IMG/VR virus record: IMGVR_UViG_3300020438_000271
Span: 1-23,982 of that record
DNA length: 23,982 nucleotides
DNA from: a virus
Strand: one strand, 5' to 3'
Shown: piece by piece, positions 1 to 22,389 of the stretch
How the letters are laid out: every line of letters starts with the position of its first letter
Position numbering within the stretch: the first letter of the stretch is position 1
Notes under the pieces: model-generated
The model's database searches: none
Seen by the model: only the letters and a program-made list of their open reading frames with translations
Told to the model about the DNA's origin: nothing
Translations under genes and position numbers: made by a program

Positions 1-1037
1 TGTATTGGTAGCCAATTTCCCCAACCATGCAACCACCAATTATCACCATAATGATAAAAATCTAATCCAATAACTAATGAGGTTTCATTTTGATTACCCA
101 ATGCTTTTTTCTTACCACCAATATATTCTTCTAACATACCTGGAAAGTGATATATAAAATATTCTCTATCAGTATATGCAAATATTCTACCATCAGCATC
201 TCTCCATAACCAATCATGTCCCCAATACTCACCACCTTCATTCCAAAAAGGACCATCACCTTCTATTGGTACAAGCTCACCTGTTTCAGTATCATACTCA
301 AATAATTCTTGATTTATCCAATTTCCATCTTCATCTATCATTGTTGGATCAAACCACATATTATCATCTATACCAAAAGCATCTTCAGCGAAGTTCCACC
401 ATTGACCTCTATACCATGTCGTGTCTAATATCATAGCATCAAATCCATATACAGGATGGTTTCTATGTTTCACACCAACTGATAAATGTAATTTGTTACC
501 TAATGCTTTAGGTGTTAAATGAACTCTTAAATCAGCATGTGTATAATGAATATCTTCTAATCCCAATTCGGTCATACCAACTTTAGCCATTAAATAGTCA
601 CCAATGTATCTTAACCAATATTCTTGATTAACATATTCATTACCCCATTGTCTACCTTCTGACCATCTAATTAAATATTCCCAACCTTTAACAGGTCCGA
701 ATGTAGCACTCTCGTTAGCGTTTTGTTCTGAGCCATCATACCAAGTTCCACCTTTACCAGCACCCTTAACACCTCTTTTTGGTTCATATTGAAATCTACC
801 TACTTTTCTCAAACCAAATGATGTTTGGAAATCTGGTTTTAAATTTCTATCTGTTCTCTCTACTTCTAAAGTACCTGTGGATAAACCACCGATAATAGCG
901 AACCTATCATCTTGATATCGTGGAGCATTCAAACTAAAACTGGCGTACGCTGTAGAATACTTGAAGAAATCTCCAATTATATTTTGACTAAATAAAGATG
1001 AGCCTAAAAATAGGCTTACTATAAATTTCTTTAACAT
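1..1037 (-). CDS. Exported aromatic-rich protein, possible outer-membrane barrel (partial)
   Basis: The ORF starts at ATG 1037 and runs off the left edge, giving 345 codons without a stop. The start follows an SD (GGAG, about 6 nt upstream). The N-terminus MLKKFIVSLFLGSSLFSQ has the charged start, hydrophobic core and small residues of a signal peptide. The mature part is rich in W, Y, G and alternating polar/hydrophobic stretches that suggest beta-strands. It also has two acidic loops, DEDGNW and DADGRI (around residues 230-290), that look like DxDG calcium-binding loops. I do not recognise a family. It follows the virion genes and has its own candidate promoter at 1059-1070, so it may be a late gene. 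An exported or outer-membrane protein is unusual for a phage; host modification or superinfection exclusion are possible roles, but this is inference. The C-terminus is missing, so a terminal aromatic residue typical of barrels cannot be checked. Confidence 0.75.
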   Translation of the reverse strand, partial: MLKKFIVSLFLGSSLFSQNIIGDFFKYSTAYASFSLNAPRYQDDRFAIIGGLSTGTLEVERTDRNLKPDFQTSFGLRKVGRFQYEPKRGVKGAGKGGTWYDGSEQNANESATFGPVKGWEYLIRWSEGRQWGNEYVNQEYWLRYIGDYLMAKVGMTELGLEDIHYTHADLRVHLTPKALGNKLHLSVGVKHRNHPVYGFDAMILDTTWYRGQWWNFAEDAFGIDDNMWFDPTMIDEDGNWINQELFEYDTETGELVPIEGDGPFWNEGGEYWGHDWLWRDADGRIFAYTDREYFIYHFPGMLEEYIGGKKKALGNQNETSLVIGLDFYHYGDNWWLHGWGNWLPI

Positions 1038-1058
1038 CTGTTTTCTCCAGTTATGTAT

Positions 1059-1070
1059 TAATAAATATAA
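1059..1070 (-). promoter_or_regulatory. Candidate late promoter element, copy 1
   Basis: The minus strand reads TTATATTTATTA, ending 21 nt before the ATG at 1037. The same 12-mer occurs at 3915-3926 and 21233-21244, with a one-base variant at 15156-15167, each time in an intergenic gap upstream of a minus-strand gene. The placement (AT-only box, short leader, SD) resembles the arrangement of T4 late promoters, but the word is not TATAAATA. Function is inferred. Confidence 0.5.
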
Positions 1071-1080
1071 GGTGTGTGGA

Positions 1081-2094
1081 TTATATGTCAAACCTAACTA
1101 TAAAATTTGTCTCATAATCATCACTTAATTTTACTGCTTTTGCTAATTTACCAACAACTAATAATTCATTATTATCGTTGTATAAACCAATTGTAGTGAC
1201 ATAGGGTTTGAATAAAGAGTGAGTAGTAAAACCTTCATATTTTCCAGCTGCCTCATATGATGTTTTAAAAGTACCAATACCATTTGCATTTGGTTGGTCA
1301 CCAAAGGGCATAAATCTTGACATAGAAACAGTACCTTCTGGTAATGTTTGACTACCACTTCTTTCAAATGTAGTAGAGATATTTGTAGAACCATTATATT
1401 CACCAACTGCGGCATTCACCATATATTCATATTCATAGTTAGTATGTGTGGCTTTATATTTTAATTCATGTCCAGTACCCAATCCACAATTATAATATGA
1501 ACCAGTATCGGTGATTACCATTATACCATGTTCATAGAATATATTACCAACTTGACTACCACTTCCGTTTGAGGCAACACCATTGGCTCGATTAAAAGAA
1601 CTTGATTTATACGCTGCAAAACTAGATGAAAATGCAAAATCATATAAATTTCCTTCACCATCATCTTTAATAATAAAAGTTTTACCATTAGAAGTATCTT
1701 CTAACTCAATAGAACCAGGCTTTACTTTTTCACCAAATAGTTCTTGTGGTATTGTAAATATTCTAGCAGTATTGTGTAATTCTCGTTTTTGAATTTTATT
1801 ATTATTTATACCAAAAACTTCAAATGGTTTTTCCCAATTTTTATAATATAATCTATTTACAGAATGCCAATTTGGAATGTCATAATATGTACCTAAAGAA
1901 TATTGTTTTGTAGTACTATTATATTCACCAAAACTTTGAGATAGTGATTGACTTGGTATAAAATTCCAAGCACTAGAACCATCTGCGCGTAATACAACAT
2001 GACCACTCGCACTATGATTATGTGTTAATGTGAAATCCTTATAGACTTTATAAGGTTTGATTGACTTATTGGTCGGGTCAATGTTCTTAAACAT
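1081..2094 (-). CDS. Virion structural protein, paralogue of upstream gene
   Basis: This 337-aa protein starts at ATG with a strong G-rich SD (GGGGG) about 7 nt upstream. Its last about 45 residues (VTTIGLYNDNNELLVVGKLA and onward) match the end of the neighbouring 340-aa protein (ITSVGLYNDDNELLAVAKLS). The middle also shares a pattern in both: a PG-x-LxL strand, a DDG/GxLY turn, then a YxxGIxVITD strand. This layout is familiar from structural proteins of marine T4-like phages, though the exact role (fibre, neck or baseplate accessory) is unknown. It lies 10 nt after the 340-aa gene and is the last gene of the structural block before the exported protein. Assignment as a virion protein rests on context and on the shared C-terminal signature. 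Confidence 0.7.
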   Translation of the reverse strand: MFKNIDPTNKSIKPYKVYKDFTLTHNHSASGHVVLRADGSSAWNFIPSQSLSQSFGEYNSTTKQYSLGTYYDIPNWHSVNRLYYKNWEKPFEVFGINNNKIQKRELHNTARIFTIPQELFGEKVKPGSIELEDTSNGKTFIIKDDGEGNLYDFAFSSSFAAYKSSSFNRANGVASNGSGSQVGNIFYEHGIMVITDTGSYYNCGLGTGHELKYKATHTNYEYEYMVNAAVGEYNGSTNISTTFERSGSQTLPEGTVSMSRFMPFGDQPNANGIGTFKTSYEAAGKYEGFTTHSLFKPYVTTIGLYNDNNELLVVGKLAKAVKLSDDYETNFIVRFDI

Positions 2095-17025: not shown

Positions 17026-17850
17026 TTATGCTCCTACATTCCAAAATAATGCATTTGGTTTTGCATATTCCTTAACAAACTTCCAAGCCTTAGCATCGTA
17101 AGTTGGTGCTGATGGAAATGGTGGCATCTCTTCTTCTTTGATAATCTTATCAAACTTATAATCTGACCGATAGAACTTAGCCCTACCAATCTCTCTTTCA
17201 CTCATCTTATGTCCTACTGAAACAACATGGACATCTTTATTTGGAAATGCTAGTTGTAGTCCTCTATTAATAGTACCACTTGAACCAACACTCCATATTT
17301 CACTAAAATCATTCTCGTTTAAATTCTGTCTAGCAACTTTTATTATACTACCAACTACCGTAGGATGTTCCAAACCAATAGGAAATAAAACTCTATTATC
17401 AGGATCCTCTTCATAGTATTTCTTTGCTCTTGATTTGGTAACACTCAACATACCCATATTCACCCATTCGTAAATAGCACCCAAGTCCATACCTCGTCTT
17501 TGGTATTCGTGATAATTATCAGGATGTCGTTTAGCCATAAACAATATTACTTTCTTATCATACTTGTTAGCTACAGCTGGTAATGAGATTTGAGCATAAC
17601 CTGTAGCAGGACAACAACCAAATACTATTTCCTTAGCCTTAATATCTCTAATATATTTATCCACAAATCTAATCTTACTGCCGTGGTCTAATAAATCATC
17701 TCTAACAACTTTAATACCATCATACTCTTTTATAACTAATGGTGGATTAGGATCTTCCCAATCACTAACCATATCTAATAACTTATCAGTATCATACATA
17801 ACACCATTGTTATCTTCATAACATTGTTCTATAAAATCATTTAATCCCAA
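17026..17850 (-). CDS. Fold-type-II PLP-dependent enzyme (ACC deaminase/D-cysteine desulfhydrase-like)
   Basis: A 274-aa protein with a TTG start at 17850, chosen because SD AGGAG lies 8 nt upstream and no ATG is in a better place; it overlaps the upstream gene by 10 nt. Residues 49-62 (VRDDLLDHGSKIRF) match the RDDL...G.K.R signature of the ACC deaminase/D-cysteine desulfhydrase family, with Lys59 as the expected PLP-binding lysine. Residues 187-197 (SVGSSGTINRG) match the Gly/Ser-rich loop that binds the cofactor phosphate. Family members are usually 320-340 aa; this one is shorter, with a C-terminus ending ALFWNVGA. Known members eliminate or replace groups on amino acids. In this operon it may supply or transfer an amino-acid-derived group, which is inference; the substrate is unknown. 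Confidence 0.75.
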   Translation of the reverse strand: MGLNDFIEQCYEDNNGVMYDTDKLLDMVSDWEDPNPPLVIKEYDGIKVVRDDLLDHGSKIRFVDKYIRDIKAKEIVFGCCPATGYAQISLPAVANKYDKKVILFMAKRHPDNYHEYQRRGMDLGAIYEWVNMGMLSVTKSRAKKYYEEDPDNRVLFPIGLEHPTVVGSIIKVARQNLNENDFSEIWSVGSSGTINRGLQLAFPNKDVHVVSVGHKMSEREIGRAKFYRSDYKFDKIIKEEEMPPFPSAPTYDAKAWKFVKEYAKPNALFWNVGA

Positions 17851-18296: not shown

Positions 18297-19578
18297 AATT
18301 AGCACTCTCCTTTTCAGGTGGATATGATTTCCTACTTCTCCTTAACCAAGCTCTTAAACTCTCACTTGACCTAACATCAATAATCAAATGATACCTATCT
18401 TCATCACCATGATTGATTGCTGTATGTGGTTTTCTCATATCCAAATACCACAACTCACCAATATCCATGTGTGCAACAGTTTCCGTACCATCAGTATTCC
18501 ATTGTGTAAAAAATACCCAATCATTAGTAACTAATGGAAAATGTAACCTAGCCCATTGACCATCATTTAGTCCAGCATCTCTATCTTGTATATCTGTATG
18601 TCGTTCTAACTCACCTTCATCTTTACCTAATTTTAATATCCTGACTCTTTCTATATCACTTTCTTCAACCTCTAATAACTCAATAAACTTCTCTACTTTA
18701 TCTAATCTTTTTCTTAATGGTGTATCTTTACATTCCCAATCTAATTTTTCTGCATTTTCTTTTTTCCAACTATTAGTCATCTCACTTGGCTTAATAATAA
18801 AATCTTCCTTGCCACCATAACCCTTTAATACAATACCTTTCCAAGTATTACCTTTGTTGTAATTGGAATAGTGATTAGCAAATAACTCATCTTCTATCTT
18901 ATACAATTGTTTTACCAAAGGCTGCACTGGTGGTACAACCATAATTAATCGTTGTAATGAACACTCTTGTGACTCTTCAATTTTCTCAATAGGTAATAAC
19001 TCATTTTGTTTACACCAAATACCATACATATCTGCAAAACTACTTACTTTATTATCTATTCTTTCAAATCCAAGAGATTCAAATACCCTTCTAAGTTGTT
19101 TATTTTGCATATCACATTCAGCAATAGTAGTACCAAATACCGTTTTAGAAAAGTGTCTCTCCATTAAAAAACCTAACCATCTTTCATATCCAACATCACA
19201 CGCAACATCAAATATATAAGAATCATTTTCACTCAATTCTATTTTTCTTTGTGTAAATGATGTGATAGTTTTTTTCTTATTTGACATTTTAGATATGTCA
19301 TAATAGATAATGGCTGTTCTAACTACACCATTTTCATCAGTAGCCCAATCTAAACATTTGTAATTATCATCATCAAAATAACCTTGCATTTTGTGTTTAT
19401 TAATCTTTCTAAATGGATCCAGTAATCTTGGTTTATTATCTTTATATTCTTTTACACCAATAGGTCTTTGTGTTCTAAGAAAACATTGCTCTACTTGTTC
19501 ATAAATTGTATCAGGATAAATCCACTTACCATCTTGATATGGTGGTTCTATTTTTTTATCAAAATCTCTAAAAATCAT
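18283..19578 (-). CDS. GNAT-like domain fused to Asp/Asn-hydroxylase-type 2OG-Fe(II) dioxygenase
   Basis: A 431-aa protein whose ATG overlaps the stop of the methyltransferase gene (ATGA), so it is coupled. The N-terminal part (about residues 60-200) resembles a GNAT acyltransferase: CLDWATDENGVVRTAIIYYD strands, a central helix, then NKQLRRVFESLGFER (159-173), the usual end of GNAT domains. The C-terminal part (310-405) matches the aspartyl/asparaginyl hydroxylase family: ELERHTDIQD (H327, D329), WARLHFPLV, GELWYLDMRKPHTAINH (H385) and DRYHLIIDV (R395, the likely 2OG-binding arginine). Known members hydroxylate Asp/Asn residues or small molecules. The combination with methyltransferase and PLP enzyme suggests a modification pathway. 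The GNAT part is less certain than the dioxygenase. Confidence 0.75.
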   Translation of the reverse strand: MIFRDFDKKIEPPYQDGKWIYPDTIYEQVEQCFLRTQRPIGVKEYKDNKPRLLDPFRKINKHKMQGYFDDDNYKCLDWATDENGVVRTAIIYYDISKMSNKKKTITSFTQRKIELSENDSYIFDVACDVGYERWLGFLMERHFSKTVFGTTIAECDMQNKQLRRVFESLGFERIDNKVSSFADMYGIWCKQNELLPIEKIEESQECSLQRLIMVVPPVQPLVKQLYKIEDELFANHYSNYNKGNTWKGIVLKGYGGKEDFIIKPSEMTNSWKKENAEKLDWECKDTPLRKRLDKVEKFIELLEVEESDIERVRILKLGKDEGELERHTDIQDRDAGLNDGQWARLHFPLVTNDWVFFTQWNTDGTETVAHMDIGELWYLDMRKPHTAINHGDEDRYHLIIDVRSSESLRAWLRRSRKSYPPEKESANYENW

Positions 19579-21092
19579 GATTTATAAAATACCAATATAG
19601 GTTCAAATTTATAATATTTACCATCAAGTTCTACTGAATTTTTAACATTACTCGCATTGATACCAACCATACGAGTCATTAACATTTTATAAATACCTTG
19701 ATATTCACCACCCAAAGATTCAACAACATCTATACTATCTTGTTCTAATGGAATGAATTTATTACTACCAACTTTGATGTCGGCGATGTTCCAACAAATG
19801 TATCTATCGTTTTTTAAAAAATTATAAGCCGTAGTTAAAGTCGGTTTTAAAAAATTATCTCTCCAATCTTCATACGCCGAAAACTTTTTAAACGATTGAT
19901 TTTCGTCTTGAGAATATTGTTCCCGATTAAAATAAGGTGGAGAGGTGAATACGAAATCAAGTTTACCAAAGTGTTTTAAAAAATTTTCGTCATCACCTAT
20001 AACCTCACTACCTAATTGATAAATTTCGTAAGAGTTGGAAGAACCATCGCCAAAGAACGGATTATTTTGGTTACAATGAGTATTGTAGAACTCAGCTACC
20101 CTCTCATATCTTCCAACATTATCCGGATTTGGATCTGTTCCTATATAATGTAATGGTCTATTAGTACACATCGCACCTAATATCCTACCACCCCATCCTG
20201 CACTCGGGTCATATACTGTAACCTTATCTGTATTATCTATATGTTTAGTAAAGTGTTCATATAAGAACTTAGCTGTTAATGGTGGAAAGTTTACTGCAGG
20301 TTGTCCTAATCCTAATCTGAATACTTGTAATGCTGATGGAAAGATTCTTTTGTTCCTATCATACTTACGAACATAATACCAATAATATCTTTTATTACCA
20401 TTCTTTAATTCATAACTATCGTCTACATCTCCCATAATAGTTTTTAAGTTCTGAGTAGTAAGATGACCGCTTTTTATATATTCATTAATTTTAGTTGAGC
20501 TAAATACTAAATAATTATATTCATCTGGTACTGGCGTTGGTTTAGCTTGTCTAATAATAGTAATACCACAATCTTTATCATTATTCAATTGTGTTAAATA
20601 TTCTTCTACATTACCGACATCTTCCATTAAAACAGATTTACCATAACTATACATTGAGTCTTTAAATAATCCGCGGAACATAGACTTCTTAAATTTTTCT
20701 TTTAAATCATCTTCTTTGAACATATCATAGATAGATGTAGCTCCCTCACTACTAACACCACTACTTATCTTAGTCTTTAACATAGTAGGAAAGAATTGAT
20801 TAACACCACTAGCCATCTTACTAAAGTTTTTAACCACTTTATGTTTATCATTATAGAACGAATCTACATCAAAGTCTTTAAGTTTAGACCAGCCTTTAAT
20901 TATCTCATCTTCATTTTTACCAATGACAGGTGGCTGTCCTTCTTTATCCCATTGTGTAATAACATACAGGCGTAACTCGTCAATCCAAGAATCTAATTCT
21001 TCGAAAGATTTTTGTAATATTTCATCGTATGTTATATTTAATGGATTATCTGTTGTGGCGATATTTGATTTTTCGTAAAACCCTTTACTCAT
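19575..21092 (-). CDS. DNA methyltransferase-like protein (DPxxGxGG / TSPPY)
   Basis: A 505-aa protein starting at ATG with SD AAGG. The C-terminal half is a Rossmann methyltransferase: motif I VYDPSAGWGGRILGA (residues 293-307), an acidic motif II YIGTDPNPDNV, and motif IV DFVFTSPPYFNREQYSQ (379-395). TSPPY is typical of exocyclic amino methyltransferases (N4-cytosine or N6-adenine). The N-terminal about 260 residues have no motif I recognise and include KMASGVNQFFPTMLK and a Tyr-rich KRYYWYYVRKYDRNKR segment; this may be a target-recognition part or a second function. It is the first gene of the four-gene cassette, behind a 174-nt gap with a candidate promoter at 21233. No restriction endonuclease is nearby. 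Modification of phage DNA against host nucleases is the likeliest role. Confidence 0.8.
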   Translation of the reverse strand: MSKGFYEKSNIATTDNPLNITYDEILQKSFEELDSWIDELRLYVITQWDKEGQPPVIGKNEDEIIKGWSKLKDFDVDSFYNDKHKVVKNFSKMASGVNQFFPTMLKTKISSGVSSEGATSIYDMFKEDDLKEKFKKSMFRGLFKDSMYSYGKSVLMEDVGNVEEYLTQLNNDKDCGITIIRQAKPTPVPDEYNYLVFSSTKINEYIKSGHLTTQNLKTIMGDVDDSYELKNGNKRYYWYYVRKYDRNKRIFPSALQVFRLGLGQPAVNFPPLTAKFLYEHFTKHIDNTDKVTVYDPSAGWGGRILGAMCTNRPLHYIGTDPNPDNVGRYERVAEFYNTHCNQNNPFFGDGSSNSYEIYQLGSEVIGDDENFLKHFGKLDFVFTSPPYFNREQYSQDENQSFKKFSAYEDWRDNFLKPTLTTAYNFLKNDRYICWNIADIKVGSNKFIPLEQDSIDVVESLGGEYQGIYKMLMTRMVGINASNVKNSVELDGKYYKFEPILVFYKS

Positions 21093-21797: not shown

Positions 21798-21803
21798 ATC
21801 TTG

Positions 21804-22235
21804 TGGAGCTGTCGGGAATCGAACCCGAGTCTTACTATACCTATTTATTAAGTCGTTCACAGCTTAGACAGGTTTTCCCATTACTTGTAGAAGGCCTATT
21901 AATTTACCTGCAAAACCACTAACAACTTTATCCAGAGTTGCCAACTGGCAGTTTCTTTAATCACTAACTTCCATCTAGCTAAAGTGAGGTGGTCTAACTT
22001 ATTTTATGTTCGGGTGTTAGACAACCCAAAATCTTACGCAGCGTATGCTGAATAAGATGGTTGGTCATTACCGATTGGTGCAGCTGGGTAATCATACTCA
22101 GCTAGATGCCAATCAATGTCCAACCCGTCTAGCGATACTTCGCCAATTAGGTTAGTTGAGTCTTATTTAAGAGTCTACTCATACTCTGCTGCACTTTATA
22201 AACTGATTATAATAATCGATACCAAGTTCAGCCCC
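21804..22235 (-). ncRNA. ssrA: tmRNA (one-piece, phage-encoded)
   Basis: The RNA begins GGGGCUGAACUUGGUAUCGA, close to the E. coli tmRNA start, and ends with the T arm UCGGG-UUCGAUU-CCCGA and CAGCUCC plus discriminator A. The 7-bp acceptor stem (22235-22229 with 21811-21805) pairs fully, with the third pair G-U that sets alanine identity. The terminal CCA is not fully encoded (ACAA follows). The long H2-type helix can form between UUUAU-AAGU at about 22190-22200 and ACUU-AUAAA near 21843-21852. Three H-type pseudoknots are visible: 22157-22187 (AGAGU/ACUCU with UGAGU/ACUCA), 21992-22027 (GUCUAAC/GUUAGAC with GGGU/ACCC) and 21923-21948 (CCAG/CUGG with CAACU/AGUUG). A tag frame lies between PK1 and PK2. 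At 432 nt it is somewhat longer than the usual 350-400. It rescues stalled ribosomes by trans-translation. Confidence 0.93.
22034..22102 (-). other. tmRNA tag-peptide reading frame
   Basis: Within the tmRNA, after the sequence AUCUAG, a frame reads GCU GAG UAU GAU ... to a UAA at 22036-22034. If the resume codon is GCU the tag is 22 aa, beginning AEYDYPAAPIG and ending SYSAYAA; if it is GAG the tag is 21 aa. The UAG just upstream resembles the UAGUC element that positions the resume codon in E. coli. Most bacterial tags are about 10 aa and end in ALAA or AVAA. The AYAA end is a variation at the position read by ClpX. Confidence 0.8.
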
Positions 22236-22239
22236 AAAT

Positions 22240-22389
22240 TTATTCATCCCAATCTTCATAATAAGGATCTTCATACTCATCATCTTCTCTTTGTAATATT
22301 TCTAATTCTTCAATTATCTCCATTACCTTATTCCAATTATGAGTATTAATTGCATTTTTTAATTCTTTTATTATTTCTGTCAATGTCAC
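22240..22389 (-). CDS. 49-aa acidic protein, GTG start
   Basis: The GTG at 22389 is preceded by SD GGAG with 7 nt spacing. A competing ATG overlapping the previous stop opens only 18 codons in another frame. The product is helical and acidic: TLTEIIKELKNAINTHNWNK, then VMEIIEELEILQ, and a tail of Asp, Glu and Tyr (EYEDPYYEDWDE). The Trp-containing amphipathic helix pair suggests a small binding protein; the tail could mimic DNA charge, but that is speculation. Its stop is only 4 nt from the tmRNA 5' end, so both are probably on one transcript. Confidence 0.6.
   Translation of the reverse strand: MTLTEIIKELKNAINTHNWNKVMEIIEELEILQREDDEYEDPYYEDWDE

Follow-up and report, generated by a model that had tools for sequence, protein, structure and literature searches.

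The window analyzed here, i.e. the whole stretch of 23,982 nucleotides of the viral record IMGVR_UViG_3300020438_000271, harbors on its minus strand a one-piece tmRNA (ssrA) gene, at 21801..22235 with its 5' end at 22235. tmRNA is the RNA by which bacteria free stuck ribosomes. The gene was delimited using ARAGORN, the Rfam model RF00023 and a set of 111 distinct full-length relatives. ARAGORN detected one tmRNA in the window, at 21803-22235 on the minus strand, and RF00023 aligned with 22235-21801 over the full model (1-374), giving 89.9 bits and an E-value of 4.9e-34, nearly twice the gathering score of 47 bits. None of the permuted-family Rfam models exceeded its threshold in the window and the standard-form model aligned from end to end, so the gene is not of the two-piece type. 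Both checks bear out the original prediction of a complete one-piece tmRNA, and its parts are conserved in the relatives. The tmRNA of this contractile-tail marine phage is confirmed as genuine, complete and one-piece.

The tRNA-like end was recognized from the sequence and the Rfam alignment. The 5' strand of the acceptor stem, GGGGCUG (22229..22235, minus strand), pairs with the 3' strand CAGCUCC (21805..21811, minus strand), and the G-U that had been predicted at the third pair is present as G3-U70, the alanine identity. The GGG opposite UCC (positions 70-72) is kept in 105 of the 111 relatives. The T arm, UCGGG-UUCGAUU-CCCGA, follows at 21812..21828 (minus strand), also as predicted. With 435 nt, the gene is longer than the 230-400 nt given for the standard tmRNA in a review (PMC3968760); another difference is that the 3' CCA is not encoded, the discriminator A at 21804 being followed by CAA, and the same is true of most relatives.

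Three pseudoknots had been predicted, and two of them are upheld by strong covariation in the alignment of relatives. PK1 (GAGU/ACUC and UGAGU/ACUCA; 22157..22186, minus strand) is paired in 97.2% of cells and 7 of its 9 pairs display two-sided changes; 23 such changes were counted against a shuffled mean of 6.4, and 0 of 500 shuffles scored as high. PK2 (UUGGGU/ACCCGA and GUCUAAC/GUUAGAC; 21992..22029, minus strand) is paired in 98.2% of cells, with two-sided changes in 12 of 14 pairs (53 changes, shuffled mean 15.4). The compensatory changes of PK1 and PK2 far exceed both shuffled and slid controls. The third, a PK3-type pseudoknot (CCAG / GCAAC / CUGG / GUUGU; 21922..21948, minus strand), is a motif with moderate support, its strict form being found in 37 of 110 relatives versus 9% of shuffles.

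The resume codon and the tag frame

A usual tmRNA tag has about 10 residues, and the one that ARAGORN assigns to this gene, GNDQPSYSAYAA, has 12, starting at a GGT at gene position 164. PK1 ends at gene position 79, and a GGC codon is found at position 92, exactly 12 nt on, with an A at -4 and a frame that stays open to the UAA of ARAGORN. The E. coli tmRNA has a spacer of 12 nt between PK1 and the codon at which translation resumes, and the base at -4 of that codon (A86) is critical there (PMC2481249). Since both the spacing and the A at -4 match these rules, we place the resume codon at position 92, and the best explanation of the sequence data is that translation resumes at this GGC. The tag frame would then span 36 codons, GEVSLDGLDIDWHLAEYDYPAAPIGNDQPSYSAYAA (22034..22144, minus strand; resume codon GGC at 22142-22144, stop UAA at 22034-22036), which is three times the length of ARAGORN's tag. 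The putative counterpart of A86, at 22148 (minus strand), is present in 93 of the 98 relatives with a nominal start; the 111-relative set is not independent evidence for this base, since its start rule demands it. The 5 exceptions are one-codon-longer forms, in which an A at -4 is regained with the resume codon one codon upstream. The 36 encoded residues fall outside the 8-35 residues reported for tmRNA tags in reviews (PMC8012679, PMC3968760), the corresponding figure being 34-42 in 100 relatives. The original prediction was right about the presence of a tag frame and its UAA stop; it had missed the length of the tag (about 36 residues), its two conserved modules and its location within a covarying hairpin domain.

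ARAGORN's call is what speaks for a resumption at GGT and for GNDQPSYSAYAA as the true tag. However, the program starts differ between homologous genes (EYDYSVELP... in L126, AQNHQ... in L124), position 164 lies 84 nt after PK1 instead of 12, 100 relatives share an open frame under codon constraint that starts further upstream, and the 9-residue tags of the sister tmRNAs begin at that upstream site. We thus rejected the 12-residue tag on the grounds of position, sister genes and upstream codon constraint, and regard it as highly improbable. ARAGORN also missed altogether the tmRNAs of three relatives (L122, L125 and L128); because it missed or mis-started many of these genes, databases probably hold wrong tags, or none, for this group.

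Long and short tags among the relatives

Relatives were gathered in four ways, i.e. through the neighboring methyltransferase, a 5'-end pattern, a tag pattern and a tag-independent 3'-half pattern. Among the 111 distinct full-length tmRNAs obtained, 100 possess tags of 34-42 codons, 10 possess tags of 9 and one (L233) has no stop. The long tags share a layout consisting of a near-invariant N-terminal module, G-D/E-x-S-L-x-G-L-x-I-D-W-H-L-A, a variable linker and a host-like tail, QPTYAYA/A; many of these sequences were found with the tag DNA pattern GGGTTRG..AT.GAYTGGCAYYT, so that part of the module invariance is built into the sample. In the tag-independent 3'-half sample, full-length sequences that lack the pattern display either the same long tag with conservative variants of the module (VDWHL, IDWQF, IDWHM, IIDWHL) or a 9-residue tag. 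The 9-residue tags (GNTANFAYA, GTEFNYAYA and others) begin at the aligned resume codon, GGC or GAC, of the long-tag forms. In one relative (L350), the tag ends with the classical YALAA.

In a tree of the neighboring HD protein, seven of the short-tag phages group in a single clade and another row stands apart, all of them nested among the long-tag phages. Tag length has thus changed state at least twice on this tree, the root of which is not known, and we rejected a single event as the origin of the short tag.

Two side observations were made on these sequences. In L233 and L282, the stop codon is lost and the frame gains 10 residues (YAYA-QVSELSNTRT), the stop being kept in the close relative L244. 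The short-tag tmRNA of L346, L355 and L365 is immediately preceded by a tRNA-like gene.

Coding potential of the long frame

The frame is open in every relative whose tag could be aligned. Among 100 sequences, stop codons number 227 and 456 in the two alternative frames and 0 in the tag frame, a zero that is partly by construction, the interval ending at the first stop of that frame. Stronger evidence for coding comes from the constancy of the frame: tag length changes only by whole codons, and IDWH and YAYA never leave their common frame, although the linker varies in length. When the sequences are compared in pairs over a core of ten codons, 2861, 1884 and 8155 differences fall on the first, second and third codon positions, respectively, the third being the most variable. 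Synonymous one-step codon pairs make up 28 of 61 where 21% would be expected. Leu5 is invariant across CTA, CTC, CTT and TTA, and none of the search patterns fixes this codon. More generally, L5, I10, H13, L14 and A15 vary mostly synonymously, and the substitutions that occur are conservative (I/V, L/F/I, H/Q). The codon pattern and the open frame support the view that the long tag is likely to be translated.

RNA hairpins within the tag frame

The same stretch also displays covarying RNA structure. A small hairpin, GGCGA-AGUA-UCGCU (22131..22144, minus strand), sits on the resume codon and codes for G-E-V-S-L. An inserted hairpin domain closed by GGUUGG/CCAACC follows at 22059..22125 (minus strand). 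Pairing was scored in two alignments split by linker type. Pairing in the GGCGA/UCGCU helix reaches 98-100%, and its compensatory changes run from GC to AU and from CG to UA; for GGUUGG/CCAACC and the helix that continues it, the values are 92.6-97.0%, and the pair after the mismatch occurs as C-G, A-U or G-C, again a compensatory series. Judged from these alignments, the long tag corresponds to a hairpin domain that has been inserted into the frame, and is an RNA structure as well. In the resume hairpin, S-L is almost invariably written TCG-CT, and the Q-P codons pair with GGGTTGG; the RNA thus dictates residues S4, G7 and Q-P at least in part. A single RNA stretch is under folding and coding constraints at once.

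One would wonder, then, whether the insert was selected as an RNA structure, with a hairpin domain that stabilizes or shapes the mRNA-like part of the molecule and a long peptide that is a mere by-product. Possible uses would be ribosome loading, binding of protein S1 or nuclease resistance, the frame remaining open only in order to reach the YAYAA degron. Supporting this idea, both helices are 92-100% paired with compensatory changes, and, among 80 distinct modules, TCG encodes Ser4 in 74 and GGG encodes Gly7 in all 80, a stronger codon bias than a peptide constraint needs. Moreover, tag templates can be replaced in E. coli without loss of activity (PMC2481249). On the other hand, DWHLA does not vary, whether a downstream CCRAUY partner is present (39 sequences) or absent (61 sequences), which favours, without proving it, an extra peptide constraint on the module. 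The mostly synonymous variation and conservative substitutions at the five residues listed above also argue against selection on the RNA alone. We consider this explanation a serious one, somewhat short of an even chance.

Distribution, synteny and candidate hosts

The tag DNA pattern was found in at least 119 stretches of viral contigs. Among 84,980 species genomes it gave 8 matches, of which only one (L325) is a tmRNA, on a contig with phage-like genes and three tRNAs inside the MAG TMED198, whose own tmRNA tag is ADYGYAAAA. A search for the tag peptide among 50,697 phage records returned nothing for the tag of the window and one chance match (E 8) for the second tag type. Elsewhere in the related loci, the tag motif occurs only in tmRNA copies and in weak matches in unrelated contigs.

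TMED198 is listed as unclassified Bacteria at NCBI. In its phylum, 14 of the 29 tags read end with AYA or AYAA, versus 1 of 31 in Bacteroidota. Because these ends fit the tails of the phage tags, they suggest that the hosts may belong to the phylum of TMED198, without establishing it. The nearest isolates according to the gp6-like protein are Microcystis phage Mel-JY01 (45%) and Flavobacterium phage immuto (40%), in both of which no tmRNA was found over threshold. The description of the phage as T4-like is correct insofar as baseplate-wedge homologues are present in the window; at 40-45% in the gp6-like protein to the nearest isolates, the label holds only loosely.

Downstream of the tmRNA, a DNA methyltransferase-like gene with PHROG matches (19575..21092, minus strand) serves as a synteny anchor. 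It lies on the same strand as the tmRNA in 42 of 42 loci, at a median distance of 587 nt, and the HD gene shares the strand of the tmRNA in 77 of 77 loci. This bears on whether the tmRNA could be a passenger, i.e. a degenerate gene taken from a host by chance. Prophages commonly insert at tmRNA genes, and many matches of the 5'-end pattern carry the enterobacterial tag ANDENYALAA, as one could expect of a passenger. Such an origin is nevertheless barely conceivable given this synteny in diverse phages and the covarying structure and open frame, which argue for long selection.

Proposed function of the phage tmRNA

We propose, with a probability of about 0.78, that the locus encodes a functional one-piece tmRNA of the phage, which relies on the SmpB of the host and whose long tag combines a host-type degron with a phage-specific extension. 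The anatomy of the tmRNA, its resume site (from homology and position), the open codon-constrained long frame, the RNA covariation and the restriction to phages in the collections searched were computed. Expression, charging, use of host SmpB and degradation most likely follow from this anatomy along the known pathway. Host alanyl-tRNA synthetase would charge the phage tmRNA with alanine, and the latter, with host SmpB, would free ribosomes stalled on cut or damaged mRNA during infection. SmpB would have to come from the host because no SmpB gene was found in 15 related phage records. The tag added would amount to 36 residues (37 counting the tmRNA's own alanine). Its C-terminal degron, of the host-type -YAYAA class, would direct the tagged protein to an AAA+ protease of the host, and would be preceded by a phage-specific extension of about 27 residues, made of the near-invariant module and the variable linker and encoded in the inserted hairpin domain.

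Candidate roles for the N-terminal module are a docking peptide, a spacer or a by-product of the RNA hairpin. The least certain part of our proposal is that the module acts as a peptide, for example by docking to a protease, an adaptor or a phage protein, rather than simply reflecting the hairpin. A bolder hypothesis would be that it is a targeting peptide made by the phage, docking rescued chains on a host or phage protein and thereby redirecting the products of trans-translation, with peptide and hairpin written in the same bases. Its partner could be a protease, an adaptor or the product of the small acidic ORF immediately upstream. The original prediction had mentioned redirected tagging, an idea made more plausible by the extra N-terminal module; we hold this hypothesis only tentatively and find it somewhat less likely than not. 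If true, it would give the phage a way of choosing the fate of rescued proteins. As for the tag being a known domain, this was rejected: no Pfam match was obtained, the best match to a solved structure had an E-value of 0.53, i.e. chance level, and AlphaFold gave no confident structure (pLDDT 63.5).

A parallel can also be drawn with the mini-tmRNA of mycobacteriophage DS6A, for which a role in competing with or blocking host trans-translation has been proposed. RNA of the DS6A type strongly inhibits tmRNA, perhaps by titration of SmpB (PMC4131195), and the resume-codon hairpin of the present RNA might hinder translation and so slow that of the tag. However, DS6A RNA consists of the tRNA-like part only, whereas the present gene has kept a full tag frame, a resume signal, a stop and two covarying pseudoknots, all needless in a simple decoy. 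We thus find it unlikely that blocking is its main role, and prefer a working tmRNA.

Relation to known tmRNAs

The phage RNA resembles the standard one-piece tmRNA (RF00023; E. coli tag ANDENYALAA) in its G3-U70 acceptor, its T arm, its order of PK1, 12 nt and resume codon, its A at -4, its tag frame with a stop, its further pseudoknots and its degron ending with Ala (YALAA in one phage relative). The group differs from it by a two-module tag of 34-42 residues and an extra covarying hairpin domain in the tag frame. Like the tmRNAs of Melnitz and of pelagimyophage Mosig (PMC9004378), it occurs in marine myophages, and translation upkeep or protein recycling has been proposed as the role of those two; those tmRNAs, however, are permuted, two-piece, of the alphaproteobacterial type and accompanied by a riboswitch, whereas the present one is one-piece. 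The tmRNAs of actinobacteriophages (mycobacteriophages, Gordonia and Streptomyces phages) are also phage-borne and one-piece, with some annotated tags of 13, 22 and 28 residues, but their tag sequences are different and the IDWHLA module was not found in these records. For the idea that the extension acts as a peptide, the best precedent is the extended tmRNA tag of Mycoplasma, which, according to the passages of PMC3985003 that cite Ge and Karzai 2009 and Gur and Sauer 2008, is recognized by Lon. As described there, that tag is likewise longer, with extra protease contacts, but it is host-encoded, has another sequence and an AFA end, and belongs to bacteria lacking ClpXP; a link of the phage tag to Lon would be by analogy.

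The presence of a tmRNA in a phage is not new by itself, and the long two-part tag is the distinctive feature. The claim that tmRNA is rare in phages has to be softened: it was reported in 402 of 18,146 phage genomes, the marine ones being mostly two-piece (PMC9004378), and 79 unique sequences in the tmRNA database come from phages (PMC11915505). Our literature search, whose scope did not extend to many subscription papers, found no report of this long tag. The present analysis describes a widespread group of uncultured marine phages whose tmRNA tags, which join a phage-specific module to a host-like degron, are the longest that we found described.

Neighboring genes

Just upstream of the tmRNA, a small acidic ORF of 49 aa with a GTG start and the C-terminal sequence ...EDDEYEDPYYEDWDE (22240..22389, minus strand) ends 4 nt before the tmRNA gene. 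An acidic ORF with a [D/N]W motif occupies this place in at least 36 of 104 relatives, short-tag ones included, and ends 3-11 nt upstream of many related tmRNAs; comparison loci without tmRNA contain 8 similar acidic ORFs in 967 kb. The ORF product looks helical and matches no Pfam family. It is possible that it is co-transcribed with the tmRNA and is a candidate partner of it. Promoter and terminator predictions scored no better than shuffles.

ClpP was rejected as a group-wide partner, being present in only 1 of 12 records. The ClpP-like protease gene was observed in a long-tag phage (L332, the record of L144; G004:79453-79947) and is absent from the 11 other records; it adjoins clamp-loader-like and methyltransferase-like genes. 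A more distant relative by methyltransferase (L165) contains 26 tRNA genes in a row. In the window itself, the gene at 17026-17850 (minus strand) matches PHROG 7093, annotated as threonine dehydratase (E 2.9e-38), a metabolic-type gene unusual in a phage tail-gene region. At the window edge, 3-1091 (minus strand) encodes a predicted secreted, aromatic-rich protein (MLKKFIVSLFLGSSLFSQ..., with the start inside the ORF), which is possibly an outer-membrane or host-derived protein.
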